DNA from: Catonella massiliensis
GTDB taxonomy: Bacteria > Bacillota > Clostridia > Lachnospirales > Lachnospiraceae
DNA: 64,000 nt
NCBI RefSeq assembly: GCF_016651435.1
Contig: NZ_JAEPRJ010000001.1
Location: 2,108,001-2,172,000, forward strand
Direction: 5' to 3'
Part shown: in pieces, positions 5,119 through 30,218 of the stretch
Layout of the letters: the number at the start of each line of letters is the position of its first letter
How positions within the stretch are numbered: the first letter of the stretch is position 1
The notes under the pieces: model-generated
What the model was told of the DNA's origin: nothing
Databases searched by the model: none
What the model saw: only the letters and a program-made list of their open reading frames with translations
Position numbers and translations under genes: made by a program

Positions 5119-6390
5119 TTAGTTATCGTTGCGTTTTACTAACTTTGAGCTATCATAACCAAGGCTTTCAAGATAAGCAAAGACATTGTTTTCATTTAGA
5201 ATCACACGTTCTATATGATTTTTAGGAGACATAAGTTCTTCATAATCAATAGGATTAAACGGTTTTTCTTCTGAAACTATGTGATAAATGCAAACTATCA
5301 TCATTCGTGCTATGGCAATGATTGCTTTCTTATGACCACGGCGTTTTTTAACTCGACCATATTTGATTGCAAAATAAGGCTGCTTTTTGCTCTTGATTGC
5401 TGCAAGTGCACATTGCACCATCATAGGCTTTAAGTAATCTCCTGCTTTTGAAATCCGCACAGACTTCTTTTTACCGGCTGACTCATTGTTAGTAGGTGAA
5501 AGCCCACACCATGAGCACAGGTGCTTTGCGTCATCAAAGATGCTCATATCTACGCCTGTTTCAGCAAGAACGATTGTTGAACTTAGTTCGGTCATCCCAG
5601 GCATTGTAGAAACAAGTTCAACGAACTTGTAGTAAGGCTTCATCCTTACATAAAGCTCAACTTCAGATTGAGTAATCATGCTATCAAGATACTCCAGATG
5701 GCTTCGGGCAAGTTCAAGCTTTTTAGCCTGATCAGATTCTATGTTATACCCCCTGATTGCCTCAATGATTTCATCGGATTTAGCTTTTGCCCCTTTTTTA
5801 ATGAGTCTGCGGACAGCTTTTTCATCAATGGAATCAGAAGTATGTGTAAGAAGATACGACATGATTTCTGTGGCTGTTTTGCCAAAAGGATCAGACAGTA
5901 CACTGGCAATGCCGACATTGGAAACAGTCATGCAGTTTTGTATGCGGTTTTTCTCAGAAGATTTCATACATACCAGTTTGAAACGGTATCTTGCGATTTC
6001 ACGCAGCTGTCTGAAGTCTTTAGGGGGAATGAACGAGCATCTGACAAGGTCGAATTTGTAGAGGTCAGCAATCCATTTGGAGTCTTTTTTATCAGTTTTC
6101 TTTCCCTTGATGGCTTTGACATATTTAGGATGGGTAAGGCAGACTTCTATGTCATTCTCGAGATAATTAAAAATAGGAATCCAATATTTCCCAGTGGATT
6201 CCATACATACATGATAACAATTATTCTCGATTAGCCAGCTGTGAAATTTTCTAATATCTGAGTTGAAAGTAGAAAATGATTTTTGCTTGTACTCAGAGAT
6301 TCCATCAGCATTTGTGATTACGATGGTTGCAACGATAACATTTTTGTGGACATCAAGCCCACAGCAGATGGAGTATTTTAACTTCATCAT
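5119..6390 (-). CDS. IS110-family transposase (DEDD recombinase)
   Basis: The protein has 423 residues from the ATG at 6390, which has AAAGGTGGTG six bases upstream; the frame is open to 6456 but that extension lacks a ribosome site. The N-terminal RuvC-like DEDD domain starts with CCGLDVHKN (first catalytic Asp), contains CMESTGKYW (Glu) and KKTDKKDSKWIADL (Asp pair). The C-terminal Transposase_20 domain has STMPGMTELSSTIVLAETG and the serine-bearing segment RISKAGDYLKPMMVQ, where the family keeps its catalytic serine. In this family the enzyme excises a circle and inserts it at an RNA-specified target. The frame is complete, so it may be active. Confidence 0.92.
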   Translation of the reverse strand: MMKLKYSICCGLDVHKNVIVATIVITNADGISEYKQKSFSTFNSDIRKFHSWLIENNCYHVCMESTGKYWIPIFNYLENDIEVCLTHPKYVKAIKGKKTDKKDSKWIADLYKFDLVRCSFIPPKDFRQLREIARYRFKLVCMKSSEKNRIQNCMTVSNVGIASVLSDPFGKTATEIMSYLLTHTSDSIDEKAVRRLIKKGAKAKSDEIIEAIRGYNIESDQAKKLELARSHLEYLDSMITQSEVELYVRMKPYYKFVELVSTMPGMTELSSTIVLAETGVDMSIFDDAKHLCSWCGLSPTNNESAGKKKSVRISKAGDYLKPMMVQCALAAIKSKKQPYFAIKYGRVKKRRGHKKAIIAIARMMIVCIYHIVSEEKPFNPIDYEELMSPKNHIERVILNENNVFAYLESLGYDSSKLVKRNDN

Positions 6391-6640
6391 AAGTATCACC
6401 ACCTTTATAAAAAAAGGATAGCAACATTGACTGTCATCCTGCGACTGAATAAACATGGTTTATTACCAATGATAAGAGTCCGGGCTCAATGTCCCACTTG
6501 TTTGTGCTTGTAAGGATGACGGCACATATAAATATACGGGGTCGAAAATAAATTCGCCACTCCTCCTCCCGTGCTCTGTAGTATATTGCTATCCTATATA
6601 GATATTATAAGACAAAGCGAGGAGAGGCACAACATTTTTT
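6391..6640 (-). ncRNA. Candidate bridge-RNA leader of the IS110-type element
   Basis: About 200 bases lie between a good minus-strand promoter (6604-6632) and the transposase start. Such a long untranslated leader is expected for the IS110 bridge RNA. It contains local complementarity (GAG-CCCGGA-CTC near 6472-6487) and the 12-mer ACTTGTTTGTGC (6496-6507, plus sense), repeated exactly at 6645-6656 next to the presumed element end. Guide RNAs of this family match the target and the element ends, so that repeat is a candidate guide segment. The fold was not computed. Confidence 0.4.
6604..6632 (-). promoter_or_regulatory. Promoter of the IS110 leader and transposase
   Basis: On the minus strand: TTGTGC (6632-6627), 17-bp spacer, TATAAT (6609-6604). 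In IS110 elements such a promoter is partly formed by the junction of the circularised ends. Confidence 0.6.
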
Positions 6641-6997: not shown

Positions 6998-7945
6998 CTA
7001 GAATTTACTTTTTATGTTACTAATAAGTTTCATTATATATACACTCTCATCAAGTGGCATAGATTTGCTTTCAAGTAATCCATTTTTAATACATTCTACT
7101 GTTTCTAAGAGTTCATATTCATAACCGCTTATTTGCTTTGGCACATCTATATGTTTTATTAGTTTATCGGAATCGTCAAATACATTTATTGAACTAGGAT
7201 TATTTATATTTTCAACTACTATATAGCCTTTTTCACCATAAAATACTCCACATCTATCAGAGCGACCATATATTCCATGAACAGAGACTGCCATAATTCC
7301 ATTTTTAAAAACAACCACTATACATTCCTTGCCGTCTACTCCTGTTTCTGTTTTAGTTGCTGTCACTGATATTTTATCAATGTCTTTTCCACAATACATG
7401 GTAATAAAATTTAGCCCATATACACCGAGATCCAATAATGCTCCTCCTGCAAGTTCAGGTCGTTGTATTCTTTCTACTTCATCTACATCGTAAGAAAGAT
7501 TTACTGTAACCATACTTATTTTACCGATAACTTCAGAAGAAATTATATCTTTAATTATATGTCGTGAAGGCATATATCTAGTCCACATTGCTTCTGCAAC
7601 ATATATTTTATTTTTAGCTGCTAATCTTTTTATTTCTTCAGCTTCCTCAAAACTGGATGTAAATGCCTTTTCACATAATACTGCTTTCTTATGAGATATA
7701 CATAGTTTTATATGCTCAAAATGATGTGAATGTGGTGTTGCAATATACACAAGTTCAACATTTTCATCACGCACCATCTCTTCATAGCTTCCATATGCTT
7801 TAGGTATGTTGAAATATCTTGCAAAAGCCTTTGCTCTAAAATTATTACGAGATGAAACAGCATAAAGTTCTAAAACTTTTACTTTTTTTATTGTCATAGC
7901 CAAAATTCTTGCAATGTTGCCAGTCCCTAATATCCCTATCCTCAT
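6998..7945 (-). CDS. Gfo/Idh/MocA-family NAD(P)-dependent oxidoreductase
   Basis: The 315-residue protein starts at the ATG at 7945 (GGGAGAG upstream); the frame extends to 7978 without a better site. The N-terminal Rossmann domain begins RIGILGTGNIARILA, the family's dinucleotide motif. YIATPHSHHFEH and LCEKAFTSSFEEAEE correspond to the conserved T-P-x-x-H and E-K regions. The C-terminal half is the usual substrate-binding beta-sheet domain with GGALLDLGVYG. Members oxidise or reduce sugar and cyclitol hydroxyls. It is the last gene of the A+T-rich operon, 51 bases after the previous stop, so it probably makes or tailors a sugar or polyol moiety of the product. Confidence 0.85.
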   Translation of the reverse strand: MRIGILGTGNIARILAMTIKKVKVLELYAVSSRNNFRAKAFARYFNIPKAYGSYEEMVRDENVELVYIATPHSHHFEHIKLCISHKKAVLCEKAFTSSFEEAEEIKRLAAKNKIYVAEAMWTRYMPSRHIIKDIISSEVIGKISMVTVNLSYDVDEVERIQRPELAGGALLDLGVYGLNFITMYCGKDIDKISVTATKTETGVDGKECIVVVFKNGIMAVSVHGIYGRSDRCGVFYGEKGYIVVENINNPSSINVFDDSDKLIKHIDVPKQISGYEYELLETVECIKNGLLESKSMPLDESVYIMKLISNIKSKF

Positions 7946-7996
7946 ATCATTTTCTCTCCCATGACTACTCATTACCATAACATGTAAAGCCCTAAT

Positions 7997-9031
7997 TTAT
8001 ATAACAAGATTTAATATATTGTTTAACTCTTGTAGAAGTTGCAAATATCTCCCATTTACTACCTTAGTTTTAAGAATGATTCTGTCTAAAGTAGCAATAT
8101 CCTTTTTAACCTCATATTTTAAACTGAACATTAAAATAGGCTCTGTATACTTAAGCAAATCGCAGACATCTTGATGCAAATTTGCAATTCTATTGCTAAT
8201 ATCTTGTACTAATTCAGCTTCATTATCTTTTATATAACAAATTCTTATATAAAATAGACGAACAAGAGCGTATATCAAATATATAGCTTTTTTTTCATAT
8301 ATATATTTGATATTATTTTTACAATTAATGGTATGTACAAGCGTATTTTCAAGTACATTTTTACCATAGTATATAGCCTCTGGAGCAAGTTCATAATAAT
8401 TTCCGTCAAAAACTCTCGGTATTAAAGTTTTATTCCAGATACAATGATTATCATCTGAACATTTATCATCTAAGAACAGATTTATTTCTTCTTTTATTTT
8501 TAGAAAGTTTATCTGCTTATTATTGCTAGGCTTAAATTTTTTTAATAATATAGAATAGTTACGTGTCCTACATACTGCTGAATCATAAGCTATTTCTATA
8601 TCATCAAACGAAACCTCTATTTTATTATAAGTTCCAATAGATGAAAAATCTGCAATATAAAATAATCTTTCTTCTATGTTAAACCCGTAAACAGTAATAG
8701 GATGAAGAAAAAATTCCGATATTTTAAAGTATTTTATTTTACTCCAGTCAATTTCGACTATAATATAGTAATATTTATTAATACTCTCTATTAAAGTCTC
8801 TGAGATTTTATTGTTACACTCTATGAATTTGCTTTCAAAAATTTTTACATTATTTGATATATGAGCATCATAATAATGATTACCCTTATCACAGAATTGA
8901 AATGCGAAGGTTTCCCAATAATTATCGACCAAGGTGTAATATGCATTATGTGCAGCAATAACAGACATTTCCATTGCATCAATGGGATTCTGACTTATCA
9001 CTGGGCTTTCATATGGTAGTATCATTTTCAT
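7997..9031 (-). CDS. Unknown protein, possible BtrH-like (papain-fold) acyl transferase
   Basis: The protein has 344 residues and no recognised catalytic motif. One stretch, around INKYYYIIVEIDW, HPITVYGFNIEERLFYIADF and VSFDDIEIAYDS, has the pattern of BtrH N-terminal/C39-like proteins in which a His and a following Asp sit on adjacent strands. The N-terminal part, AHNAYYTLVDNYWETFAFQF, occupies the position of the usual nucleophile helix but shows no obvious Cys there. The C-terminal 130 residues are helical. BtrH in butirosin biosynthesis transfers an aminoacyl group from a carrier protein to its acceptor, and a carrier protein and an ATP-grasp ligase are present in this operon. The assignment is weak and could be wrong; the gene is clearly part of the operon. 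Confidence 0.4.
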   Translation of the reverse strand: MKMILPYESPVISQNPIDAMEMSVIAAHNAYYTLVDNYWETFAFQFCDKGNHYYDAHISNNVKIFESKFIECNNKISETLIESINKYYYIIVEIDWSKIKYFKISEFFLHPITVYGFNIEERLFYIADFSSIGTYNKIEVSFDDIEIAYDSAVCRTRNYSILLKKFKPSNNKQINFLKIKEEINLFLDDKCSDDNHCIWNKTLIPRVFDGNYYELAPEAIYYGKNVLENTLVHTINCKNNIKYIYEKKAIYLIYALVRLFYIRICYIKDNEAELVQDISNRIANLHQDVCDLLKYTEPILMFSLKYEVKKDIATLDRIILKTKVVNGRYLQLLQELNNILNLVI

Positions 9032-9072
9032 TTATCATCCTTCTACTCTAAATAATCTCAAGCTCTGTTTTT

Positions 9073-10248
9073 TTATGTTTCACCATGTAAATACAAGTTA
9101 TTACATTGAGCACATATAGGCATAAGTTGCTCATCTATAATACAACGCGCCTTATTAAATGCTTCGCTGTTCCATATTTCTTTAAGGCTTTTTTCTTTTA
9201 AATTGCCTATATTAAACTCTTTAAAATGTTTACAAACCGATATTGAGGCGTCTGGCATGATGTCAGCTCTCATAGATATCGAATTACACGATGTTCTATT
9301 TTGGAGATAAATATTCTTTCCAGATAAGAATGGATATATCTCATCTTCCTTTATTTTAGGAAAATATCTAATATTAAACTTCCAATTATAATTATCTATC
9401 CTTTTCAATTCGCTTCTGATAGTTGTTCCGTACTCTTCTGGCAATCCATATTTGAAAGAATCCCAACTTCTATTTTCAGCCTTGCTTAGTTCAGGTAACC
9501 AAAGAAATCTAGTATTAATATACTTTTCCATAAGCTCTGATGATTCATCTGATATGTACCAGGGAAAGCATAAAATCAAAGAATCAACAGATAAACTCTG
9601 TACATATTGCGCATACTCAAACAATCTATTGTAGTTAGTATGATTTATTACAGTATGAATTGTAATTTTACCTAAAAATTCCTTTTCTGCCCTCTTTTTA
9701 AGTAACAAATCAATCGCAGCACAAATTTTGTTAAATACTCCATTCCCTCTAATTTTATCGTTATCTTCTTTAAATCCTTCCATTGCAATTACTAATTCTA
9801 AGTTTTTTCCAATTTTAATCAATGAGTTCAGATTATTTTCTATAAGCAATGCATTTGTACATATTGCACAAATCCTATTTTCTCCACTAATCAAATCTGC
9901 AAGTTCATCGAATTTACTATAGCACAGAGGCTCTCCACCCCATAAATATAAACCTGATTTAATATCACTTGTTTCAGCTAGAACTTTTCGTAGAACTTGA
10001 ATATCAAGCTCTTCATTTTGCTTAATTTCATCCATAAACTGGCAATATCCAAGTTCACTCCATTCATAACAATGCTTGCAACGTAAGTTGCATCTATTTG
10101 TTAGCTTAATTCCAACAAGAGATGGCATCTCTAAATGAAAGCCCTTTTCGCATCTTTTCCCTTTTTTAACTTCCGAAATATTTTTAAGTGTTTTTTTAAG
10201 TGCTTCAAAATATTGCGGATCAATTTTTTGTTTAATACTACAATCCAT
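9073..10248 (-). CDS. Radical SAM enzyme with SPASM-like C-terminus
   Basis: The 391-residue protein carries the radical SAM cluster motif CNLRCKHC (Cys53, Cys57, Cys60) preceded by GIKLTNR, and the GGE-type motif LWGGEPL that binds S-adenosylmethionine. After the TIM-barrel portion (about 45-250), the C-terminus has further cysteines in the SPASM/twitch arrangement: TSCNSIS, SVCKHFKEFNIGNL, then ICAQCNNLY near the end, with the typical SLKEIWNSEAF helix. SPASM proteins modify peptides or enzyme-bound substrates, or act as sugar or aminoglycoside dehydrogenases. It lies 19 bases after the glycosyltransferase. No precursor-peptide gene is visible, so the substrate is more likely carrier-bound or a sugar. 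Confidence 0.85.
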   Translation of the reverse strand: MDCSIKQKIDPQYFEALKKTLKNISEVKKGKRCEKGFHLEMPSLVGIKLTNRCNLRCKHCYEWSELGYCQFMDEIKQNEELDIQVLRKVLAETSDIKSGLYLWGGEPLCYSKFDELADLISGENRICAICTNALLIENNLNSLIKIGKNLELVIAMEGFKEDNDKIRGNGVFNKICAAIDLLLKKRAEKEFLGKITIHTVINHTNYNRLFEYAQYVQSLSVDSLILCFPWYISDESSELMEKYINTRFLWLPELSKAENRSWDSFKYGLPEEYGTTIRSELKRIDNYNWKFNIRYFPKIKEDEIYPFLSGKNIYLQNRTSCNSISMRADIMPDASISVCKHFKEFNIGNLKEKSLKEIWNSEAFNKARCIIDEQLMPICAQCNNLYLHGET

Positions 10249-10267
10249 AATTTTTGTCTCCTATGCA

Positions 10268-11326
10268 TTATACATTACTATCTAATTTTAGATAATCCTT
10301 TATTTTATAATAAATATTCTCTGTATTGATTCTACTCTTATATAAATTTTTATGGCATTCCTCTAATATTTCTATTGAAAAATTATTCCTCTGCCATTCG
10401 CTAAATGTTAATCCAAAACCATTTTTACACCAATAATCAGCATTAGCTTCCTCATGCTTTGCTATTGCAGTAGTAAAAATTATTGGAGTAGCAGTATTGA
10501 ACGAATCCATCAATGTGCCCCCACCTGGTTTTGATATAATACCAATTGAGCTTTTAACTAATTCATTTATGTAATGTATGTTCTTAAGATTCATGTTACA
10601 TGAATTATAATATAATGGCGGAAATACCTTTTCTTCAATTCCCCAAGGTTGCCAATCGTTGGTATAAAAACATCTGATTTTCCCATTTAACATATCTATA
10701 TTTCTTAAGGATATTACATCTAAATTAAAACCTTTTTCACATATAGTATTAATAATCCCATTTTCTAGGCCAATTCCCCAACCTCCACCATGCATTACTA
10801 GTCTATTTTCTCTTTGATTAAATGGGGTTGGACAGATGTCTTCTAATGCAATATAACTATCAATTATATGTTCGTTGTTTCCAACTATCCAAAAGGCAGC
10901 GTCACAATCCATATTAAAATTTTTCCACGATGGTGCAATATCGCAATCCATGTGTATACAAACTTTTACAACTTCTCTACAAATATAATCTCTATACTTC
11001 TTTAATACTGATCCCCAATTCCCTGAAAATACTATAAACGTATTAATTTTTCTGTTTTTCCATACTTGTAATAAATTATTTACCTTTTCATCATCGAAGT
11101 TGACTATATTACCAGCAATATTCATACGTGATGAAATCTGGGCAATTCTAATATCCTTTTGGTACGCTAATCGGTTTTCAGTAATCCTTTTCATTTTATC
11201 TGTATGGAACAGATTCTCTACAACTTCAAAAGTTATATCTTTTACATCTCTACGTAATCGATTATATAAAATCATTGCTGGGATATAAGTTCCTAATCCA
11301 ATCCCACTTGATAATATTGCAACTAT
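10268..11326 (-). CDS. MurG/GT-B-like glycosyltransferase, apparently starting at ATA
   Basis: From the first ATG (11275) the protein would have 335 residues and lack its N-terminal strand and glycine loop. The same frame upstream reads AILSSGIGLGTYIPA, the expected GT-B start, and is bounded by a TAG at 11345-11347. AGGAGG sits seven bases before an ATA codon at 11326, and no ATG, GTG or TTG occurs between stop and 11275. The probable protein is thus 352 residues, initiated at ATA or carrying a start-codon mutation. The C-terminal donor-site loop GIISKPGGGTLMDSF followed by IAKHEEANADYW matches MurG-like enzymes. It would transfer a sugar to the cluster product. It sits 21 bases after the ATP-grasp stop. 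Confidence 0.75.
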   Translation of the reverse strand: MVAILSSGIGLGTYIPAMILYNRLRRDVKDITFEVVENLFHTDKMKRITENRLAYQKDIRIAQISSRMNIAGNIVNFDDEKVNNLLQVWKNRKINTFIVFSGNWGSVLKKYRDYICREVVKVCIHMDCDIAPSWKNFNMDCDAAFWIVGNNEHIIDSYIALEDICPTPFNQRENRLVMHGGGWGIGLENGIINTICEKGFNLDVISLRNIDMLNGKIRCFYTNDWQPWGIEEKVFPPLYYNSCNMNLKNIHYINELVKSSIGIISKPGGGTLMDSFNTATPIIFTTAIAKHEEANADYWCKNGFGLTFSEWQRNNFSIEILEECHKNLYKSRINTENIYYKIKDYLKLDSNV

Positions 11327-11347
11327 ATAAATCCCTCCTATCTGCTA

Positions 11348-12664
11348 TTATACTAATTTGAAACCACTGTCTTTCATATATAATTTAAACTTATCATAAG
11401 TTTCGCAAATATGTTTAAATGAATCTGCACAAATAACACAGTACACCCTACCTCTATATTTACGACCTGCACTTTTGTTAATAAACATTGTCCTCTCAGA
11501 AAGAATAATTATTCCTCTATTATTCATCGGAGTGAACAGTAGTCCTATTCCATCCAATCCACTTAGTAAATTATCATAATCTATCTGCTCAAATCCCCCT
11601 ATAAAATCAAATTGAGCCAACATTCCTTGAAGATAATATTTTTGTAAAAATATATCCACATAATGTTTTAAAAGACTCATTGATTTTCGTGCATTAATTT
11701 CTACAATTTCAACAATATTGCCATTTCTAAGTATCATAGAATCTATGCAAACGTCCCCTATATACCCATCAGAATACATTTGTTTTCCAATTTCTTCAAT
11801 TTTTTTATAATACTGATTTCTGTCCAAGAGTTTTAATATATCACTCTCTATGGATACAGAACCGCCATAAGACAAGCCATTATTTAGCACTTTTTGTGTA
11901 GACATAATATCTATGGTACCAAATTTATCTATATAAAACTGGCAAGAAAAATCATAATATTTATCTAGTAATGGCTCCACTATAAGCTCTACAAGCTGCC
12001 CTTTTCTTTCTTTTGATCGAATCTGTTCTACAATTCTCTTTGAAATAGGTCCATATTCCACACAAATATTACCTTTACCTGAAACTCCATAATTTTCTTT
12101 TATTATACTTTTCAGGTTATTCTTATTATTTTCTAAAACAATTTTCTCTATTTCATCAGCAGAACTTGCATACTTCGCAATATTTTTACAATCTATCCTT
12201 TCACGCATAATTGAAGAATATTTTTTGGAATTCACTTCTTTAACCAGCTTATGTGATGAAAACTCTCCTTTACATAATAGTTTGCATTTTATATCATCAG
12301 CATATTCATTTATAACGAATGGATCTAAGTTAAGACCTTTAATTTCTTCTTTGCCATCATTATCTTCATATAAACATTTATAAGAAGATTTATCATAGTT
12401 AAAGCCATTATTAACTGAGCAATATAAATTATTAAATTTAAACCCAATATCATGTAAATAATCTCTATGAGTAGCATTCATTTTAAATCTAGTGAACAAA
12501 TAGCTATTAATGTTACTATCATTACAAGAAAATATAGCCTGTAATTCATCCATTGCAAGGACTATATTTTTGCTTTCAGTACTTGATATATTTGGCAATC
12601 TGACTATTCTATCATCCTGCCAAAACCTTTCTCCTTCAAAATCTCCAACTATAAGCTTATCCAT
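11348..12664 (-). CDS. ATP-grasp ligase of the carrier-protein-linked type
   Basis: The protein has 438 residues. ATP-grasp features are visible in the middle: a lysine and flexible-loop region (IKENYGVSGKGN, near 190-200), VEPLLDKYYDFSCQF for the adenine-binding strand, and the metal-binding end DVCIDSMI...IVEINARKSMS near 300-325. The N-terminal 150 residues form a pre-ATP-grasp domain, and the C-terminal 90 residues are specific to this subfamily. ATP-grasp enzymes couple a carboxylate to an amine or thiol through an acyl phosphate; BtrJ of the butirosin pathway loads glutamate onto a carrier protein. The carrier gene lies 18 bases upstream, so loading or extending an amino acid on that carrier is the likely job. 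The substrate cannot be read from sequence. Confidence 0.7.
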   Translation of the reverse strand: MDKLIVGDFEGERFWQDDRIVRLPNISSTESKNIVLAMDELQAIFSCNDSNINSYLFTRFKMNATHRDYLHDIGFKFNNLYCSVNNGFNYDKSSYKCLYEDNDGKEEIKGLNLDPFVINEYADDIKCKLLCKGEFSSHKLVKEVNSKKYSSIMRERIDCKNIAKYASSADEIEKIVLENNKNNLKSIIKENYGVSGKGNICVEYGPISKRIVEQIRSKERKGQLVELIVEPLLDKYYDFSCQFYIDKFGTIDIMSTQKVLNNGLSYGGSVSIESDILKLLDRNQYYKKIEEIGKQMYSDGYIGDVCIDSMILRNGNIVEIVEINARKSMSLLKHYVDIFLQKYYLQGMLAQFDFIGGFEQIDYDNLLSGLDGIGLLFTPMNNRGIIILSERTMFINKSAGRKYRGRVYCVICADSFKHICETYDKFKLYMKDSGFKLV

Positions 12665-12682
12665 CTTTAATCTCTCACATTT

Positions 12683-12937
12683 CTAATCTTTTTTTATCTG
12701 GATTTCAATAAATTCACAAAAAGCTTCAATTTTCTCTAGTAATTTATAATCAAAACTGTCAAAGTCAATTTCAATATTATATTCATCTTCAACTAATAAA
12801 ATAAAATTTATTAATTGTAATGAATCTAGTCCCGCATCATTAATGAGACTTGAATCCCTGTTTAATTCATTTTTGTCAATTTTACCTTCTTTAACCTGCC
12901 AAACTAAATCAATAATTTTACTAACAATAGTTTCCAT
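12683..12937 (-). CDS. Acyl/peptidyl carrier protein
   Basis: The 84-residue acidic four-helix protein has the phosphopantetheine attachment motif AGLDSLQLINF with Ser39. It is a free-standing carrier of the ACP/PCP superfamily. No fatty-acid synthase genes are nearby, and its partner is the ATP-grasp enzyme immediately downstream. It probably holds an aminoacyl thioester during assembly. Activation needs a phosphopantetheinyl transferase, which is not encoded in this window. Confidence 0.9.
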   Translation of the reverse strand: METIVSKIIDLVWQVKEGKIDKNELNRDSSLINDAGLDSLQLINFILLVEDEYNIEIDFDSFDYKLLEKIEAFCEFIEIQIKKD

Positions 12938-13011
12938 TTATTAATCCTCCATAAATTATAATATTTTAATTTTATATATTTCTTTATAATTAAGCTTGTA
13001 TCAATCCTTTA

Positions 13012-13815
13012 TCATGTACTTGCACTCACATATTTTTTCACAGCAATTTCCCAAACAAACTTTATCATAGTGAAGAATATAATAGGTCCAATAATTCCCC
13101 ATATTAATTCGTATATAGCCAACTCGCCTGTTACAAACAAAGTTCCATAATTTGCCATTGGAAATATTGGATAAATATAAGTTCCTATTCTCTGAATAAG
13201 CTTACCATAAACTGCTTTTGGCATCTTATTCATATCATGTATAGCATAGCCTATATTGTATACACCTGATGCTTTAACTGTCCAAAAAGATAAAATTGCA
13301 GGCACCAGCTGTAACACATATACCCAAATCACTCCCAGCAACATAAATATTATAAATCCTATAATATTTGCAAACGATATTGCTACACCCATTTTTTGCC
13401 ATCCTATAACAATAAGTACAATACCTGTAATAAAATCTGCAATAGGATATCCGAATTCCACGTATCTAAGTGTTACTATAAATTGTAGTGAAATAGGCTT
13501 TGTAATAAATAAATCTAGCTGTCCCGTTCGCAAGTATTCTGGGATATTATAAAAGTTTGTAAAGAACATACTCATATATATACCCGTAATAACTAAATAT
13601 GTTCCTACAAATAAAAACAAACTTTCTTTCCCTATGCCCCCTATAGAAATATCTGAAGTATATAATACCAGCAAATATAACAAATGAGAACAAATCCAGC
13701 CACATTCTGCTAATATGGAAAATAAAAAATTAATCCTATACTCCATCTGTGCCTGTAAGCAATTCCTTAAAAATACAAAATATAATCGAAAATACATTCT
13801 AACATTTTTTAACAT
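13012..13815 (-). CDS. ABC-2-type exporter permease (PF06182-like)
   Basis: The 267-residue membrane protein has about six hydrophobic segments. The motif PEYLRTGQLDLFITKPISLQF is the hallmark of the DUF990/ABC2_membrane_6 family, which works as a heteromeric pair with a second permease and one ATPase. Its partners are the two genes just upstream. The transporter probably exports the product of this operon or gives self-resistance. Confidence 0.85.
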   Translation of the reverse strand: MLKNVRMYFRLYFVFLRNCLQAQMEYRINFLFSILAECGWICSHLLYLLVLYTSDISIGGIGKESLFLFVGTYLVITGIYMSMFFTNFYNIPEYLRTGQLDLFITKPISLQFIVTLRYVEFGYPIADFITGIVLIVIGWQKMGVAISFANIIGFIIFMLLGVIWVYVLQLVPAILSFWTVKASGVYNIGYAIHDMNKMPKAVYGKLIQRIGTYIYPIFPMANYGTLFVTGELAIYELIWGIIGPIIFFTMIKFVWEIAVKKYVSAST

Positions 13816-13876
13816 ATTATTTTTTTCCTCTAACTCCTGTTAAAAATTGTCTTTACATACTACTATAACCTCAATC

Positions 13877-14707
13877 TCAGCCTCCTACTGCTGTATATCT
13901 TTTTAATCCTACATTCCAAGTTGCACTGCATATTATAAAAAATATGCCTATCCATAATACTTGTACCAAAACTCCTCTTCCCAGACTATCTATTGTTACA
14001 GTTCCATTTAGAGTATTGGTTAGAAAATATGTTGTATAAGTAAATGGTAGAATTTCAAATAAAGAACTAGTTTTTTCTCCAAATATACTTAACGGAAAAA
14101 TAGCTCCACTTACTATTGCAACCAATATATCTATAATGCCATATAGCCTCCCCACTTCTACTATCCAGAATGCTAACATACTTACACTCAAAAATATCAA
14201 AAAATTCAGTATGAAAGCTGGAATTAAAACTATTAAAAAAGCTATGATTGCAAAAGGTTGTATAATTAATCCTAAATTAGGGGCTACTCCAACTATAAAT
14301 ATAATTAAAACTACAAATACTACTATAAGTTCTAATATTTTTTCACCAAATGAACGCATTATCTGATAAATTATATATTTTACAGGTTGTACCAAAAAAT
14401 TATTTAACGTTCCATTTTTTATATCCTGGGATATTTGGTGATGGCAATCTGTGCCAATCAATTTAGATATAAAGCCAGCACACAATGTGTAAATAAGGGC
14501 TTCCGCATAAGTTAACCCAAACATCCTATCCCCCTGTCCCTTACCTGCGAACACTGCTGACCAAACAAAATACTGCATCATTATAGGAAAGACTATACTA
14601 ATTAAATTTATTAAATAATTCCCCCTATATTCGAGTGCATTTTCAAATCCTAGTATAAAAATAGAACGATATTTTTTTATAGTATTTTTATACATCTCAT
14701 ACCTCAA
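13877..14707 (-). CDS. ABC-2-type exporter permease, second subunit
   Basis: The 276-residue protein has six predicted membrane segments and the related motif ISQDIKNGTLNNFLVQPVK. It is homologous in layout to the 267-residue permease 61 bases downstream, as expected for the two halves of a DUF990-type exporter. The start is 14 bases after the ATPase gene, so the two are translationally close. Confidence 0.85.
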   Translation of the reverse strand: MRYEMYKNTIKKYRSIFILGFENALEYRGNYLINLISIVFPIMMQYFVWSAVFAGKGQGDRMFGLTYAEALIYTLCAGFISKLIGTDCHHQISQDIKNGTLNNFLVQPVKYIIYQIMRSFGEKILELIVVFVVLIIFIVGVAPNLGLIIQPFAIIAFLIVLIPAFILNFLIFLSVSMLAFWIVEVGRLYGIIDILVAIVSGAIFPLSIFGEKTSSLFEILPFTYTTYFLTNTLNGTVTIDSLGRGVLVQVLWIGIFFIICSATWNVGLKRYTAVGG

Positions 14708-14721
14708 TTTGCTTTATATTT

Positions 14722-15699
14722 TTATTGTCTTTCATAAATCCTTTCTAACCCTTCTTCAAGCGGAATATCAGATAAGCCAAAATCTTTGATAGGCATGGTG
14801 TCTGTAACTTTCTGCAACAATCTTTTAACATCATCTTTATTAACTTCTATTTCAGCTTCACATTCATCATATTTTCTAATAATTCCAAATTGTTCAAGTA
14901 TTTCTTTATCTACAGCACTTGAGAACTTAAGGGTTATTATTTTTTTGTCATAATATATTGAATTTATATCCTCACTTTTCCCGTCATATACTACTTCTCC
15001 TTCATTTATTACTATTATTCTCGAACACAAGTCTTCAATATCTTTCATATAATGGCTTGTTAATAATATAGTTGCCTGATACTCTTGATTATAATATCTC
15101 AAAAAATTTCTTATTTTTTTTTGAGATATCATATCAAGCCCTATAGTGGGTTCATCTAAGAAAATAACTTTTGGCTTATGGAGCAATGCTGCAATTATTT
15201 CAAGTTTCATTCTTTCTCCTAAGGAAAGTCGTCTAACTTGTACATCCATTATATTCGATACTTCCATTAAATCAGCTAACATTTTAATAGTCTCTTTATA
15301 TTCTTCATCATCAATTCCATATATACACTTGTTTAAGTAAAGCGACTCTTTTGCCGGTAAGTCCCACCAAAGCTGATTCTTTTGTCCCATTATTATTGAA
15401 AACTGTCTTTTAAACTCGTTATTTCTTTCCCATGGTATATATCCAAGTACATTAATCTCCCCTGTCGTTGGATACAAAATACCAGAAAGCATTTTTAATG
15501 TTGTTGTTTTACCTGCACCATTAGGCCCAACAAAGCCAACAAATTCTCCCTCTTTAATGTTGAATGATATATTATTCACAGACTCCTTAATTAATTTTTC
15601 TCTTTTGAAAAAATTTTTAAGCGAGCCTTTTACACCATCTTCTTTTTTATAGTATTCGAATCTTTTGGTTAAATGCTTCACCTCTATGCAATTATTCAT
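14722..15699 (-). CDS. ABC exporter ATPase
   Basis: The 325-residue NatA/CcmA-like nucleotide-binding protein shows Walker A GPNGAGKTTT, Q-loop IIMGQKNQLWWDLPA, signature RRLSLGERMKLE, Walker B VIFLDEPTIGLD and the His-switch TSHYMKD. The long N-terminal lead (EYYKKEDGVKGSLKNFF) and the QKNQLWWDLP segment are typical of ATPases paired with DUF990 permeases. It energises export by the two permeases that follow. It lies 41 bases after the first radical SAM gene. Confidence 0.93.
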   Translation of the reverse strand: MNNCIEVKHLTKRFEYYKKEDGVKGSLKNFFKREKLIKESVNNISFNIKEGEFVGFVGPNGAGKTTTLKMLSGILYPTTGEINVLGYIPWERNNEFKRQFSIIMGQKNQLWWDLPAKESLYLNKCIYGIDDEEYKETIKMLADLMEVSNIMDVQVRRLSLGERMKLEIIAALLHKPKVIFLDEPTIGLDMISQKKIRNFLRYYNQEYQATILLTSHYMKDIEDLCSRIIVINEGEVVYDGKSEDINSIYYDKKIITLKFSSAVDKEILEQFGIIRKYDECEAEIEVNKDDVKRLLQKVTDTMPIKDFGLSDIPLEEGLERIYERQ

Positions 15700-15740
15700 A
15701 AAACCCCTTCCATTAATACGTTATACTTACCAAAAGTGAT

Positions 15741-16826
15741 TTAACTGTGTCCTTCAGTTTGAGTATAATATCTTGAACAAGCAATGCACATAGGCATCAT
15801 CTCTTTTCTTAACAATCTTCTATATTTTGCACAATGTTTATTGTTCCAAATATCTAAAAAATCTTCTTTATTTACGTTGCCAAAATTTAAATCCTGAAGA
15901 GTATGGCACATAATCACATCACCCGATGCTGACACTTCTGCATGCAAATATACAAAAGGACATTTATTCCTTTTATCAAGCATATCGTTCCAATTTGCTT
16001 TGAAATAATTTCTGTAATTATTGGCATCTATTGTTGATGGATTATTAAAAAATTTTATACCACTCTTCTGACTAAAATTTTTAATATCATTCATATCACA
16101 AGCGAGTTTATCACAATCAATGTCATCAAAGTCACTTATATCTCTGACAAATCCTCTTGCAGAATTCGTTTCTGTTATATTAAAGTTCTCATTTAAAAAC
16201 TTACTGTATTTGCTATAGCACTCATATGTTGCAAAATTTTGAAACTCAAAGCTGACATGATCTATTCTACATTCTTTGATGAATGACAAGTAAAACTCTC
16301 TAATATTAAAATAGTTTGTAGGAGTGACAACTGTAGTAATTCCAATTTTAGGTATATCATTTTTGCGCAATGCTAGAATTCTCTTAATTCCACTTATTGC
16401 TTTATCATATGTCCCTATTCCACGTTGTAAATCATTAATTCTTTTATCTCCATCTAATGAAACCCAAATCCTTGTTATTCCAGATTCAAGCAATTCATTT
16501 GCATGCTTCTCTAACAATGTGCCATTTGTTGCAATATCAACACGGCTTCCGTTTTTCTTTATACATTCAATTACATCAAATATTCGATTATAAAGAAGCG
16601 GTTCACCTCCAAATAGCTCATAATATGGCTTTGCAATAGCACACTGTTCAATAATTTTCTTAACTATGTCAAATTCTAAAGAATTTAATTTTGTCTTATT
16701 TCTATATGCTCCATTTTTACCCCACTCATAGCACATATCACAACGTAAATTGCATGCTTCTAGCAGTTGCAATACAATCCATTTAGGGATCATTCTACTT
16801 TTATTAAAGCTTAAAATCTCGCACAT
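15741..16826 (-). CDS. Radical SAM enzyme with SPASM-like C-terminus, first gene of the operon
   Basis: The 361-residue protein has the cluster motif CNLRCDMC (Cys25, Cys29, Cys32), ELFGGEPLLY for S-adenosylmethionine, and IATNGTLLE and WVSLDGD on later barrel strands. The C-terminus holds auxiliary-cluster cysteines: NKCPFVYLHAEVSASG, VIMCHTLQDLNFGNV and MCIACSRYY. It is related to, but clearly distinct from, the radical SAM protein at 9073-10248, so two different radical steps are expected. Its substrate is unknown. It starts at ATG 16826 with GAAGG upstream, about 65 bases downstream of a consensus promoter. Confidence 0.87.
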   Translation of the reverse strand: MCEILSFNKSRMIPKWIVLQLLEACNLRCDMCYEWGKNGAYRNKTKLNSLEFDIVKKIIEQCAIAKPYYELFGGEPLLYNRIFDVIECIKKNGSRVDIATNGTLLEKHANELLESGITRIWVSLDGDKRINDLQRGIGTYDKAISGIKRILALRKNDIPKIGITTVVTPTNYFNIREFYLSFIKECRIDHVSFEFQNFATYECYSKYSKFLNENFNITETNSARGFVRDISDFDDIDCDKLACDMNDIKNFSQKSGIKFFNNPSTIDANNYRNYFKANWNDMLDKRNKCPFVYLHAEVSASGDVIMCHTLQDLNFGNVNKEDFLDIWNNKHCAKYRRLLRKEMMPMCIACSRYYTQTEGHS

Positions 16827-16948: not shown

Positions 16949-17526
16949 CATATTCTTGCTAAGTAGTTTTTCAACTTAAATGCAACATGGTGTTGCACTT
17001 ACTCTGACAGGTACCTCTGTTGCATTTACTTTGAAGTATATCATTAGCTCAGTTTCAAAATTATTAAATATAATACATAGAGCCACTCTAATTGATAAAT
17101 CAAGGAAATATAAGGCTATTGTGTAGGTTTTATTTATGGTTATATTGGGCTTAATTTATAATAAATTTCACTTACGAAATTCTAGTCAAGGCTGGGCTGA
17201 AAGCCCATTCACTTTAGCCTTGACAGATTTCGTGTAAGTGAAATATAATCGATTAGCCCAAATATAAGGTTTATAAGTAGATATTGGTAAAATTTTTCAA
17301 AGTAAACGCAACACTAAAAACCGTTGCATTTAACCTGAAAGATGTAGTTTCAGGTCTGTTTGCTATACCCTTTTTTCGCCAAAAGCAATAAAATCAAACC
17401 AAATTTGATTAAATTCAGTCAGATTTTATTGATATAATTTTATCATTTTATCTAGCAATAGTGTTGCATTTACTATTTTTACAAAGTGTTGCACTTACCT
17501 TGAAAATCTAGCCATATTCTTGCTAA
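16949..17526. repeat. Nested inverted repeats resembling transposon ends (non-coding element)
   Basis: A 14-bp direct repeat CATATTCTTGCTAA flanks the region at 16949-16962 and 17513-17526. Just inside are inverted ends, TTTTCAACTTAAATGCAACA (near 16968-16987) and TGTTGCACTTACCTTGAAAA (17487-17506). Further copies of TGTTGCAYTTAC lie at 16991, 17019, 17323 and 17462, with an inverted one at 17296-17312. Such repeated TGTTGCA ends resemble IS21-family terminal repeats, but no istA or istB frame is present. In the middle a long imperfect palindrome (about 17146-17260) carries a GGGCT-GAA-AGCCC core. The rest of 16827-17831 holds no gene. Confidence 0.55.
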
Positions 17527-22968: not shown

Positions 22969-24396
22969 TTACGCTACAATAGCTTCCTTATTTTCCGGAC
23001 GTCTGATGTCCATCAACATCTTCTTCGGAGCATATTTCGTACCAGTATTCAGAATCGTATAGATAATCCTCAGAAGCTTGCAGGCTATCACAATCAATGA
23101 CTGCATCTTTTTCAACGGATTATCGGCTCGTGTCGTATAATACATATGGAGTTCTTTGAATTCCTCTGCATGGGCCACTGCTGACTTTGCTGCCTGGAAT
23201 AACCAATATCTGAGTCGTTTGCGTCCTCTATGACTGATTTTGGTTTCTCCCTTATGCTTTCCTGAACTGCATGCCACAAGGCCTAATCCGCTTAATTTCT
23301 GTATTTCCTTAACATCATCAAATCTTGAAATATCTCCCATCTCTGCAAGAATACCGGAAAGTGTATTTTCTCCAATCCCAGATATCTCCAGAACGTTACC
23401 TGTATGCGGTATCTCCTGACATTTCTGGTTGATCTGGTTCTCTATAACAGCAAGTTCAACATCCAGTTCCATGATTTTCTGCACGAACCACTTTACAGCT
23501 GCCTTGCTTGCAATAGATCCATCCTTAATCCCAACACTTGCTTTTGCGTACTGTAAGATTTCTCTGGCTCTGCTGTACCCGCGTCCTCTAAGTTTAGCAG
23601 CATGCCAAATCTGTCTTATCCCTTCTTCTCCAAGTGCGGTCAGTTCATCCGGAAATGGTGCCTCTTTCAGCAGTTCAAGGCTAAATGCTCCATCGACTTT
23701 TCCCAATGCTTCCTTATACTCCGGGAAATATATCTTCATCTCCCTGTGCATCCGGTTGATTGTTCGAATTCTGTCTTCATTCAGTTGGTCTCTGAACATG
23801 GATAACCTACGAAGTTCAGCATAGATTTTTTCTGGAAGATATGGCATACCAAAGTTGCCATCCTTGACAAGATTTGCTATCAGTTTTGGATCCTTCCTGT
23901 CATCCTTGAGCTGGCTGTTATCTTCAACCTCCTTTGTCTGCTTAACAGCATAAGGGTTTACCTGAACAACACTGATTCCATTTGTAATCATCCATGTAGC
24001 AAGGCAGAACCAGTAGTGACCGGTCGGCTCTAAGCCAAGCACTATCTGACTCTTATCATGTTCAGCGGCTATCCTCACTGCCCATTCCTTTGCACTCCGG
24101 AAGCCCTCTTGATTATTGTTGAAAGAATGTGCGGACTTACTGAGTTCCCGTCCTCTGGTATCAATTGCTCTCATATAGTGCGTTTCGCTGCCTACATCAC
24201 ATCCCAAGATAAGCATGTCATCGCTGATAAAAGAGAGTTTTTTATTTTTATCGAACTTACCATTGGTTTCCAACTCACGCCAGGTTGAAGCTGCGAGATT
24301 TTCCTTAATCACCTCCGATTTTTTCAAAAGCTCCTGCTGTTCAAAAATATTTGCTGTTACTACTTGATTTTTTTTCTTTGTGCCTTTAATATTCAT
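22969..24396 (-). CDS. IS1111-group transposase, copy 1
   Basis: The 475-residue DEDD recombinase shows ILGCDVGSETHYMRA (first Asp), LGLEPTGHYWF (Glu) and VEDNSQLKDDRKDPKLIANLV (Asp pair) in the RuvC-like half. The Transposase_20 half carries LEISGIGENTLSGILAEMGDIS and KISHRGRKRLRYWLFQAA, including the serine-bearing helix start. The ATG has AAGAGGTATC upstream. It differs from copy 2 by only a few residues, for example IYFPEYKEA here against IYYPEYNEA. The frame is complete and probably functional. Confidence 0.93.
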   Translation of the reverse strand: MNIKGTKKKNQVVTANIFEQQELLKKSEVIKENLAASTWRELETNGKFDKNKKLSFISDDMLILGCDVGSETHYMRAIDTRGRELSKSAHSFNNNQEGFRSAKEWAVRIAAEHDKSQIVLGLEPTGHYWFCLATWMITNGISVVQVNPYAVKQTKEVEDNSQLKDDRKDPKLIANLVKDGNFGMPYLPEKIYAELRRLSMFRDQLNEDRIRTINRMHREMKIYFPEYKEALGKVDGAFSLELLKEAPFPDELTALGEEGIRQIWHAAKLRGRGYSRAREILQYAKASVGIKDGSIASKAAVKWFVQKIMELDVELAVIENQINQKCQEIPHTGNVLEISGIGENTLSGILAEMGDISRFDDVKEIQKLSGLGLVACSSGKHKGETKISHRGRKRLRYWLFQAAKSAVAHAEEFKELHMYYTTRADNPLKKMQSLIVIACKLLRIIYTILNTGTKYAPKKMLMDIRRPENKEAIVA

Positions 24397-28790: not shown

Positions 28791-30218
28791 TTACGCTACA
28801 ATAGCTTCCTTATTTTCCGGACGTCTGATGTCCATCAACATCTTCTTCGGAGCATATTTCGTACCAGTATTCAGAATCGTATAGATAATCCTCAGAAGCT
28901 TGCAGGCTATCACAATCAATGACTGCATCTTTTTCAACGGATTATCGGCTCGTGTCGTATAATACATATGGAGTTCTTTGAATTCCTCTGCATGGGCCAC
29001 TGCTGACTTTGCTGCCTGGAATAACCAATATCTGAGTCGTTTGCGTCCTCTATGACTGATTTTGGTTTCTCCCTTATGCTTTCCTGAACTGCATGCCACA
29101 AGGCCTAATCCGCTTAATTTCTGTATTTCCTTAACATCATCAAATCTTGAAATATCTCCCATCTCTGCAAGAATACCGGAAAGTGTATTTTCTCCAATCC
29201 CAGATATCTCCAGAACGTTACCTGTATGCGGTATCTCCTGACATTTCTGGTTGATCTGGTTCTCTATAACAGCAAGTTCAACATCCAGTTCCATGATTTT
29301 CTGCACGAACCACTTTACAGCTGCCTTGCTTGCAATAGATCCATCCTTAATCCCAACACTTGCTTTTGCGTACTGTAAGATTTCTCTGGCTCTGCTGTAC
29401 CCGCGTCCTCTAAGTTTAGCAGCATGCCAAATCTGTCTTATCCCTTCTTCTCCAAGTGCGGTCAGTTCATCCGGAAATGGTGCCTCTTTCAGCAGTTCAA
29501 GGCTAAATGCTCCATCGACTTTTCCCAATGCTTCGTTATACTCCGGGTAATATATCTTCATCTCCCTGTGCATCCGGTTGATTGTTCGTATTCTGTCTTC
29601 ATTCAGTTGGTCTCTGAACATGGATAACCTACGAAGCTCCGCATAGATTTTTTCTGGAAGATATGGCATACCAAAGTTGCCATCCTTGACAAGATTTGCT
29701 ATCAGTTTTGGATCCTTCCTGTCATCCTTGAGCTGGCTGTTATCTTCAACCTCCTTTGTCTGCTTAACAGCATAAGGGTTTACCTGAACAACACTGATTC
29801 CATTTGTAATCATCCATGTAGCAAGGCAGAACCAGTAGTGACCGGTCGGCTCTAAGCCAAGCACTATCTGACTCTTATCATGTTCAGCGGCTATCCTCAC
29901 TGCCCATTCCTTTGCACTCCGGAAGCCCTCTTGATTATTGTTGAAAGAATGTGCGGACTTACTGAGTTCCCGTCCTCTGGTATCAATTGCTCTCATATAG
30001 TGCGTTTCGCTGCCTACATCACATCCCAAGATAAGCATGTCATCGCTGATAAAAGAGAGTTTTTTATTTTTATCGAACTTACCATTGGTTTCCAACTCAC
30101 GCCAGGTTGAAGCTGCGAGATTTTCCTTAATCACCTCCGATTTTTTCAAAAGCTCCTGCTGTTCAAAAATATTTGCTGTTACTACTTGATTTTTTTTCTT
30201 TGTGCCTTTAATATTCAT
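28791..30218 (-). CDS. IS1111-group transposase, copy 2
   Basis: A 475-residue protein nearly identical to copy 1, with the same DEDD and Transposase_20 motifs; the readable differences are F-to-Y and K-to-N in IYYPEYNEALG. The frame is intact. The close identity implies recent duplication or ongoing gene conversion. Confidence 0.93.
   Translation of the reverse strand: MNIKGTKKKNQVVTANIFEQQELLKKSEVIKENLAASTWRELETNGKFDKNKKLSFISDDMLILGCDVGSETHYMRAIDTRGRELSKSAHSFNNNQEGFRSAKEWAVRIAAEHDKSQIVLGLEPTGHYWFCLATWMITNGISVVQVNPYAVKQTKEVEDNSQLKDDRKDPKLIANLVKDGNFGMPYLPEKIYAELRRLSMFRDQLNEDRIRTINRMHREMKIYYPEYNEALGKVDGAFSLELLKEAPFPDELTALGEEGIRQIWHAAKLRGRGYSRAREILQYAKASVGIKDGSIASKAAVKWFVQKIMELDVELAVIENQINQKCQEIPHTGNVLEISGIGENTLSGILAEMGDISRFDDVKEIQKLSGLGLVACSSGKHKGETKISHRGRKRLRYWLFQAAKSAVAHAEEFKELHMYYTTRADNPLKKMQSLIVIACKLLRIIYTILNTGTKYAPKKMLMDIRRPENKEAIVA

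Follow-up and report, generated by a model that had tools for sequence, protein, structure and literature searches.

Closest described systems

The side chain of butirosin is built with a carrier protein (BtrI), an ATP-grasp ligase (BtrJ), a decarboxylase (BtrK) and an acyltransferase (BtrH). Here we compare this and other described systems with an operon of ten genes in Catonella massiliensis (assembly GCF_016651435.1, contig NZ_JAEPRJ010000001.1, positions 2,108,001 to 2,172,000 of the forward strand). All coordinates refer to this stretch of 64,000 nucleotides, which was analysed as a whole and is called the window. Like butirosin assembly, the operon has a free-standing carrier, an ATP-grasp ligase and a BtrH_N-like protein and no non-ribosomal peptide synthetase (NRPS), and among its relatives 12 of the 13 loci with a second ATP-grasp gene also encode a decarboxylase, from a family whose one tested member resembles BtrK most. 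Unlike butirosin assembly, the operon has neither a decarboxylase nor a cyclitol synthase and its BtrH-like protein lacks the cysteine, while two radical S-adenosylmethionine (SAM) enzymes, a glycosyltransferase (GT) and an exporter of its own are added.

Other systems share single parts. By profile comparison, the ATP-grasp protein of the operon is homologous to PGM1-type ATP-grasp peptide ligases over nearly its whole length (34-sequence profile against PGM1-related ligases: hhalign probability 100, E 1e-44, 417 columns), whereas the family of the window shows 18% identity to them, is covered by no dedicated Pfam model and has a carrier as its genomic partner. BtrN, according to passages of two papers, binds a single auxiliary cluster through four cysteines and catalyses a two-electron oxidation (PMC9012708, PMC6231123). 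Both radical SAM enzymes of the window share with BtrN and other twitch enzymes the CX3CX2C motif and four C-terminal cysteines, although for the first of them (rSAM1) the similarity is partial, covering the N-terminal part in cytosylglucuronate decarboxylase BlsE (3e-13) and the C-terminal part in BtrN (0.001). For nosiheptide, indolic-acid chemistry is described as centred on the carrier protein NosJ (PMC5585349). The feature in common would be a free-standing carrier on which the product of a radical SAM enzyme is processed; product and gene set differ from those considered here.

Taken together, the operon looks like a new form of NRPS-free biosynthesis on a carrier, and its ATP-grasp family has no name. 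A preliminary description, made from the sequence alone, had known of no pathway with exactly this set. The set is new to us as well, and we recognised no account of it among the matches listed from partly viewed open-access full-text literature, a scope outside which most subscription journals fall; it is, however, not unique to this genome. The features are, in order of transcription:

16925-16897, minus strand: promoter-like site, TTGACA-17-TATAAT, 12/12 consensus (sigma-70-type), 70 bases before the first gene
15741..16826, minus strand: rSAM1, twitch-type radical SAM enzyme, 361 amino acids (aa); Pfam Radical_SAM 3e-17, SPASM 2e-11
14722..15699, minus strand: ATP-binding cassette (ABC) transporter ATPase, 325 aa; Pfam ABC_tran 5e-27, DrrA-like, under the NCBIfam cut-off
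13877..14707, minus strand: ABC-2 permease 1, 276 aa, TTG start; Pfam ABC2_membrane_6 1e-21
13012..13815, minus strand: ABC-2 permease 2, 267 aa; Pfam ABC2_membrane_6 1e-31
12683..12937, minus strand: acyl carrier protein (ACP), 84 aa, pantetheine site Ser39; Pfam PP-binding 3e-8
11348..12664, minus strand: ATP-grasp ligase of a family without a name, 438 aa; profile matches
10268..11275, minus strand: GT-B type glycosyltransferase, 335 aa as called; conserved HGGGWG and KPGGGT motifs, profile match
9073..10248, minus strand: rSAM2, twitch-type radical SAM enzyme, 391 aa; Pfam Radical_SAM 4e-15, SPASM 9e-12
7997..9031, minus strand: BtrH_N-like papain-fold protein, 344 aa, without the conserved cysteine nucleophile; BtrH_N E 0.01, below cut-off
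6998..7978, minus strand: Gfo/Idh/MocA oxidoreductase, 326 aa; Pfam GFO_IDH_MocA 2e-24

These are ten consecutive minus-strand genes in the list of open reading frames (ORFs) of the window, running from 16826 down to 6998 with nine intergenic gaps of 41, 14, 61, 74, 18, 72, 19, 41 and 18 bases, and seven of the ten proteins lie above Pfam cut-offs. The layout is that of the preliminary description, which had given the same span, gaps of 14 to 74 bases, a consensus promoter, a DUF990-type exporter and a Gfo/Idh/MocA enzyme; the ORF coordinates, the perfect promoter-like site, the two ABC2_membrane_6 permeases with their ATPase, and the Gfo match all agree with it.

Conservation and co-inheritance of the gene set

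Relatives of the ATP-grasp gene were collected by a profile scan of one genome per species (84,980 species), which gave 283 relatives. The best 80 by similarity, mostly from Paenibacillus and several of them ended by contig edges, form the set of relative loci (numbered with L). Among these, the GT is found in 78, rSAM2 in 71, the ABC ATPase in 50, the Gfo enzyme in 45, each permease in 43, rSAM1 in 29 and the BtrH-like group in 25, while the carrier gene is present in 79 by direct hits and in 76 by clustering, on which family counts depend. All ten families occur together in four loci (L016, L028, L054 and L073) and nine of them in 14. The core was found in records of Paenibacillus, Cohnella, Clostridium, Lachnospiraceae, Chlorobi, Methylococcaceae, Nostoc and Cyclobacteriaceae. 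As controls we used ten window proteins encoded outside the operon: seven match none of the 80 loci, and an IS110 transposase, a methyl-accepting protein and a response regulator match 1, 4 and 6, respectively. A chance neighbourhood is rejected by these control counts of 0 to 6.

The 148 genomes of the reciprocal sample were taken from a larger group and belong to one family. Over 7 kb, one of their loci shares 93% identity with a locus of Paenibacillus xylanexedens, from which we infer that the family is Paenibacillaceae (Paenibacillus group). At E 1e-40 there are 55 ATP-grasp matches, and all 42 that score above 250 bits, a line chosen after the scores were seen, have a GT within 8 kb. Conversely, an ATP-grasp match lies within 8 kb at 43 of the 49 GT places; five of the other six were read, and in four of these the same slot is occupied by an ATP-grasp that has diverged further. 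All 48 rSAM2 places have a GT within 9 kb, and 48 of the 49 GT places have an rSAM2; the two stand near each other in 43 of the 148 genomes. By these comparisons the ten genes are a conserved and co-inherited module of predicted biosynthetic function, and the view of the preliminary description that they form a single unit, for which it had proposed co-occurrence across genomes as a check, holds both in the 80 loci and reciprocally in the 148 genomes. Gene content, motifs and co-inheritance can all be read from the sequences themselves.

Carrier protein and ATP-grasp ligase

Ser39 of the carrier is conserved in every one of the 78 aligned rows (with the window counted twice), which together with the PP-binding match agrees with the carrier as first described. 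The carrier gene lies directly 5′ of the ATP-grasp gene in 59 of the 80 loci under a strict rule. Seven loci that score as "ACP elsewhere" under this rule were read as adjacent too, because the carrier starts 136-251 bases before the ATP-grasp start. In 13 of the 80 loci the carrier is found directly 5′ of rSAM2 in place of the ATP-grasp gene, an order also seen in L092, L093 and L096. The carrier is thus tied to both genes by its 5′ adjacency.

The ATP-grasp protein alone has no NCBIfam match and no Pfam match at E 0.01. Among the 34 members of its family, six match CPSase_L_D2, three PreAtp-grasp and two PGM1_C, all weakly, and the member of the window matches none; the family profile matches a solved ATP-grasp peptide ligase (PDB 8ynd, E 4e-8). 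A glycine-rich loop and a metal-binding E-x-N are hallmarks of ATP-grasp enzymes, and both belong to the positions that are invariant in the 34 sequences (K189, G193-V194-S195-G196, E230, E322 and N324), in keeping with the motifs initially reported. Nor does the protein fall into an unrelated ligase family with no carrier partner, which had been named as the outcome that would speak against the operon, since it is homologous to ligase-type ATP-grasp enzymes and a carrier gene accompanies it in nearly all relative loci.

Radical SAM enzymes

The two radical SAM enzymes are paralogues (26% identity, E 2e-37). In rSAM1, C25/C29/C32 and C289/C307/C347/C350 are invariant in 30 of 30 rows, and in rSAM2, C53/C57/C60, C130 and C321/C339/C379/C382 in 72 of 72. 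Both therefore match the two CxxxCxxC proteins with extra C-terminal cysteines noticed at the outset, which the Pfam matches also bear out. Neither has the seven-cysteine SPASM motif; judged from the conserved columns, both carry the BtrN-like four-cysteine twitch arrangement. The best PDB match of rSAM1 is BlsE, and MoaA, several peptide-modifying enzymes and the C-terminus of BtrN follow; the sole PDB match of rSAM2 is the sactisynthase SkfB (3e-4). A related cluster (L026, 6535-7851, on a contig shared with L090) encodes a third radical SAM protein, in which the SPASM match precedes the radical SAM domain.

Glycosyltransferase and BtrH-like protein

The preliminary description had noted a GT-B donor loop. 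The HGGGWG and KPGGGT motifs are conserved, and the C-terminal part of the GT profile matches a processive diacylglycerol glucosyltransferase (PDB 9wde, E 3e-8). However, the single-sequence Pfam match lies below cut-off, only one of 31 family members matches Glyco_tran_28_C (5e-4), and homology to the solved GT-B enzyme covers the C-terminal part alone. In the conserved-column alignments of the operon proteins, a length filter removed 3 of the 79 rows for the GT.

We judge the annotated GT start to be too short because the frame extends 5′ of the called ATG (window 11276-11347) and 19 in-frame residues there resemble the N-terminus of relatives. No ATG, GTG or TTG occurs in this extension, and AGGAGG stands immediately before ATT 11332 and ATA 11326. 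The start likely lies 51-57 bases upstream of the called ATG, at one of these two non-standard codons. An apparent in-frame TGA inside the GT of some relatives (five places) was discarded: in the six loci read, the translated stretches contain no stop. As these stop-free stretches end 9-12 bases before the matches do, the TGA sits at the C-terminal end.

Judging from the alignments, the BtrH-like label is the weakest assignment in the operon. In BtrH-type acyltransferases a papain-like cysteine is catalytic, as expected from the fold. Among the BtrH-like rows H110 is kept in 53 of 53 and D128 in 44 of 53, but the best cysteine column of the group to which the window belongs is filled in 17 of 26 rows, the window not among them, whereas another BtrH-like group (F26) keeps two cysteine columns in 15 of 15. 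The BtrH acyltransferase named in the preliminary description is accordingly not upheld, its BtrH_N match being under the cut-off as well.

Variable surroundings in relatives

The accessory families of the relatives, of which one representative each was scanned, vary between loci. The decarboxylase family occurs in 13 of 81 loci compared (the window's locus included), and the single decarboxylase tested matches BtrK with 411 bits, the next-best kind of solved protein reaching 163 bits. Of the 13 loci that contain a second ATP-grasp, nine have a second carrier as well and 12 a BtrH_N-like protein. Decarboxylase and second-type ATP-grasp stand as a pair at L089 (9372-11984) and L091 (9912-12611), where the 20 kb read contain no hit to the GT or to rSAM2, and the arrangement of these two loci suggests that the BtrK-like cassette also travels alone. 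No protein named BtrJ appears among the listed 120 of the 184 proteins found with the second ATP-grasp group.

An AMP-ligase (12 members) and a carrier from a different family (9 members) are found in other relatives, and a ketosynthase-III-like protein with a weak Pfam match is found in 10 loci. Other accessory genes encode FkbM and other methyltransferases, an APH-type kinase, a MatE exporter, an arginine-deiminase-like enzyme and an N-acetyltransferase. Given this variation between loci, the core appears to be joined by acyl donors and tailoring enzymes that can be exchanged, in the manner of natural-product clusters. In two Lachnospiraceae relatives (L040, whose genes were scanned, and L059, placed in the same families by clustering), the core lies beside an APH phosphotransferase-family kinase and a MatE exporter, which possibly serve self-protection. 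Sugar and polysaccharide neighbours comprise glucose-1-phosphate cytidylyltransferase with a nucleotide-sugar dehydrogenase, an FkbM methyltransferase, a polysaccharide pyruvyltransferase and a sulfotransferase.

Proposed pathway and alternatives

We read the operon as a laterally acquired, NRPS-free, carrier-based cluster for an exported small molecule, a proposal that has, with all its steps, an even chance of being right. By analogy with BtrJ, the PGM1-type ATP-grasp enzyme would activate a carboxylic acid and load it onto the phosphopantetheine arm at Ser39 of the carrier; this acid is probably an amino acid. The tethered unit would then be oxidised by the twitch radical SAM enzymes, with rSAM2 acting in most relatives and rSAM1 providing a second step in some. 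The GT-B enzyme would attach a sugar, the Gfo-type dehydrogenase may adjust the oxidation state, the papain-fold protein may assist release or transfer, and the three-gene ABC-2 transporter would export the product. The amino acid as substrate, the order of the steps, the site of glycosylation, the product and the direction of transport are all what we infer from the gene content.

Several observations weigh against this proposal. PGM1-type enzymes are amide-forming, so that carrier loading by the ATP-grasp enzyme leans on the analogy with BtrJ. No tested activity was found for any member of the set. Pairwise distances between the families co-vary (r 0.92 for ATP-grasp and GT, 0.88 for ATP-grasp and rSAM2, range 0.63-0.95 over 28 pairs), which counts in favour of the proposal, but the correlations are not corrected for species phylogeny, and the lowest value is that between the ABC ATPase and the carrier. 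Not only was the 250-bit line drawn late, but of the 13 ATP-grasp matches at or below it in the 148 genomes, four have a GT within 8 kb, and one GT place that was read (L095) has no ATP-grasp at all. rSAM2 is missing in nine of the 80 loci; the contig continues in five of these (L065, L069, L070, L077 and L081) and ends in four (L025, L055, L058 and L061). In L060, rSAM2 lies about 7 kb away on the other strand. Peptide-modifying enzymes are among the matches of rSAM1, and polysaccharide genes adjoin some relatives. Finally, passages of one paper describe relatedness networks as poor at predicting function in this radical SAM group (PMC6231123).

The alternative that survives best is that the ATP-grasp protein is a PGM1-like amide ligase that couples an amino acid to a peptide or an amino sugar, leaving the carrier to hold another acyl unit, destined for the papain-fold protein. 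Indeed, the closest solved relatives of both homologous ATP-grasp groups include peptide ligases (8ynd; PGM1 weakly), and proteins of the second group are named PGM1-related. However, the near-constant presence of the carrier, its position directly 5′ of the ATP-grasp gene in most loci and the second carrier that accompanies most second ATP-grasp genes argue against a separate role for the carrier, and we consider an amide ligase unlikely.

It is also conceivable that the operon makes no diffusible metabolite but attaches an acyl or aminoacyl group to a glycolipid or a surface glycan. The resemblance of the GT to lipid glycosyltransferases points this way, and the idea stays alive because sugar-nucleotide and polysaccharide genes adjoin some relatives. 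Against it, none of the ten genes is recognised by Pfam as a polymerase, O-unit flippase or initiating sugar transferase, and the relatives differ in their acyl-donor cassettes and exporters (MatE in L040), as natural-product clusters do; surface decoration is in our judgement distinctly improbable.

Radical SAM/SPASM proteins often mature peptides. A cluster for a ribosomally synthesised and post-translationally modified peptide with two radical SAM maturases would therefore account for these enzymes and for the match of rSAM2 to SkfB, but both have four auxiliary cysteines and not the seven-cysteine SPASM motif, although SkfB too, according to a passage of PMC6231123, has a twitch domain. 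An invariant carrier protein stands in place of a peptide, and on the operon strand within the 1 kb upstream, where only six ORFs of 22-38 codons all have GTG or TTG starts, we found no convincing precursor peptide gene (relatives were not searched). We regard such a cluster as very improbable and reject it.

A butirosin-like aminoglycoside pathway, suggested by the carrier, ATP-grasp, BtrH-like and BtrN-like parts and by the BtrK-like cassettes of relatives, and by the preliminary description, which had likened the route to that of butirosin, is scarcely credible, because Pfam finds no BtrK-type decarboxylase among the ten genes and the sole DHQ_synthase match of the genome, the only candidate for a 2-deoxy-scyllo-inosose synthase, lies 1 Mb away from the cluster, and the BtrH-like protein lacks the conserved cysteine. 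A closthioamide-type cluster is likewise rejected, as the ten proteins contain no Pfam domain of a thioamide enzyme of the adenine-nucleotide-hydrolase type (compare PMC6772006).

Returning to the carrier-based cluster, the relatives may represent a natural-product class in which a new ATP-grasp family loads a dedicated carrier with an acyl, probably aminoacyl, unit that undergoes glycosylation and radical oxidation on the tether; the class would be common in Paenibacillus-type bacteria, have spread to anaerobes and use exchangeable acyl-donor cassettes. We put this wider proposal forward tentatively, with more doubt than confidence. An ATP-grasp family with a regular carrier partner, and twitch enzymes with no visible peptide precursor, would extend radical chemistry to carrier-bound or sugar substrates. 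Since the module is widespread and compact and its enzymes can be expressed one by one, a new metabolite class would be directly testable, and the locus family, in which acyl-donor cassettes differ around a shared core, offers a ready comparison set for each step.

Composition, promoter and flanking elements

The G+C content (GC) of the operon is 0.296, compared with 0.374 for the window and 0.42-0.45 for the five nearest housekeeping-type genes, and the ATP-grasp gene is present in one of five genomes of the genus, the window's own. Both observations count for lateral acquisition, and the operon was probably acquired in this way. In a sample of the family, 3 of 299 genomes match the ATP-grasp protein at E 1e-30: the window's own, G278 with the core (L088), and G108 with a second-type ATP-grasp without the core (L089). 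In a sample of the phylum, 4 of 398 genomes match at E 1e-40.

Promoter-like sites overall are not above chance in the window (74 against 71.3 in shuffles). A second perfect site lies at 17220-17249 in the opposite direction, and a hairpin (17165-17250) overlaps it. The hairpin was considered as a repeated element and rejected, as in the genome it matches just its own two strands (single copy).

On its 3′ side the operon is flanked by an IS110-type transposase gene (5119-6456), which has 20 matches in the genome including itself, four of them at 96-100% identity and one of these four with an internal stop. Another transposase-like gene is present in two near-identical copies about 5.8 kb apart (22969-24396 and 28791-30218), and this pair is a distant match to the IS110-type gene.

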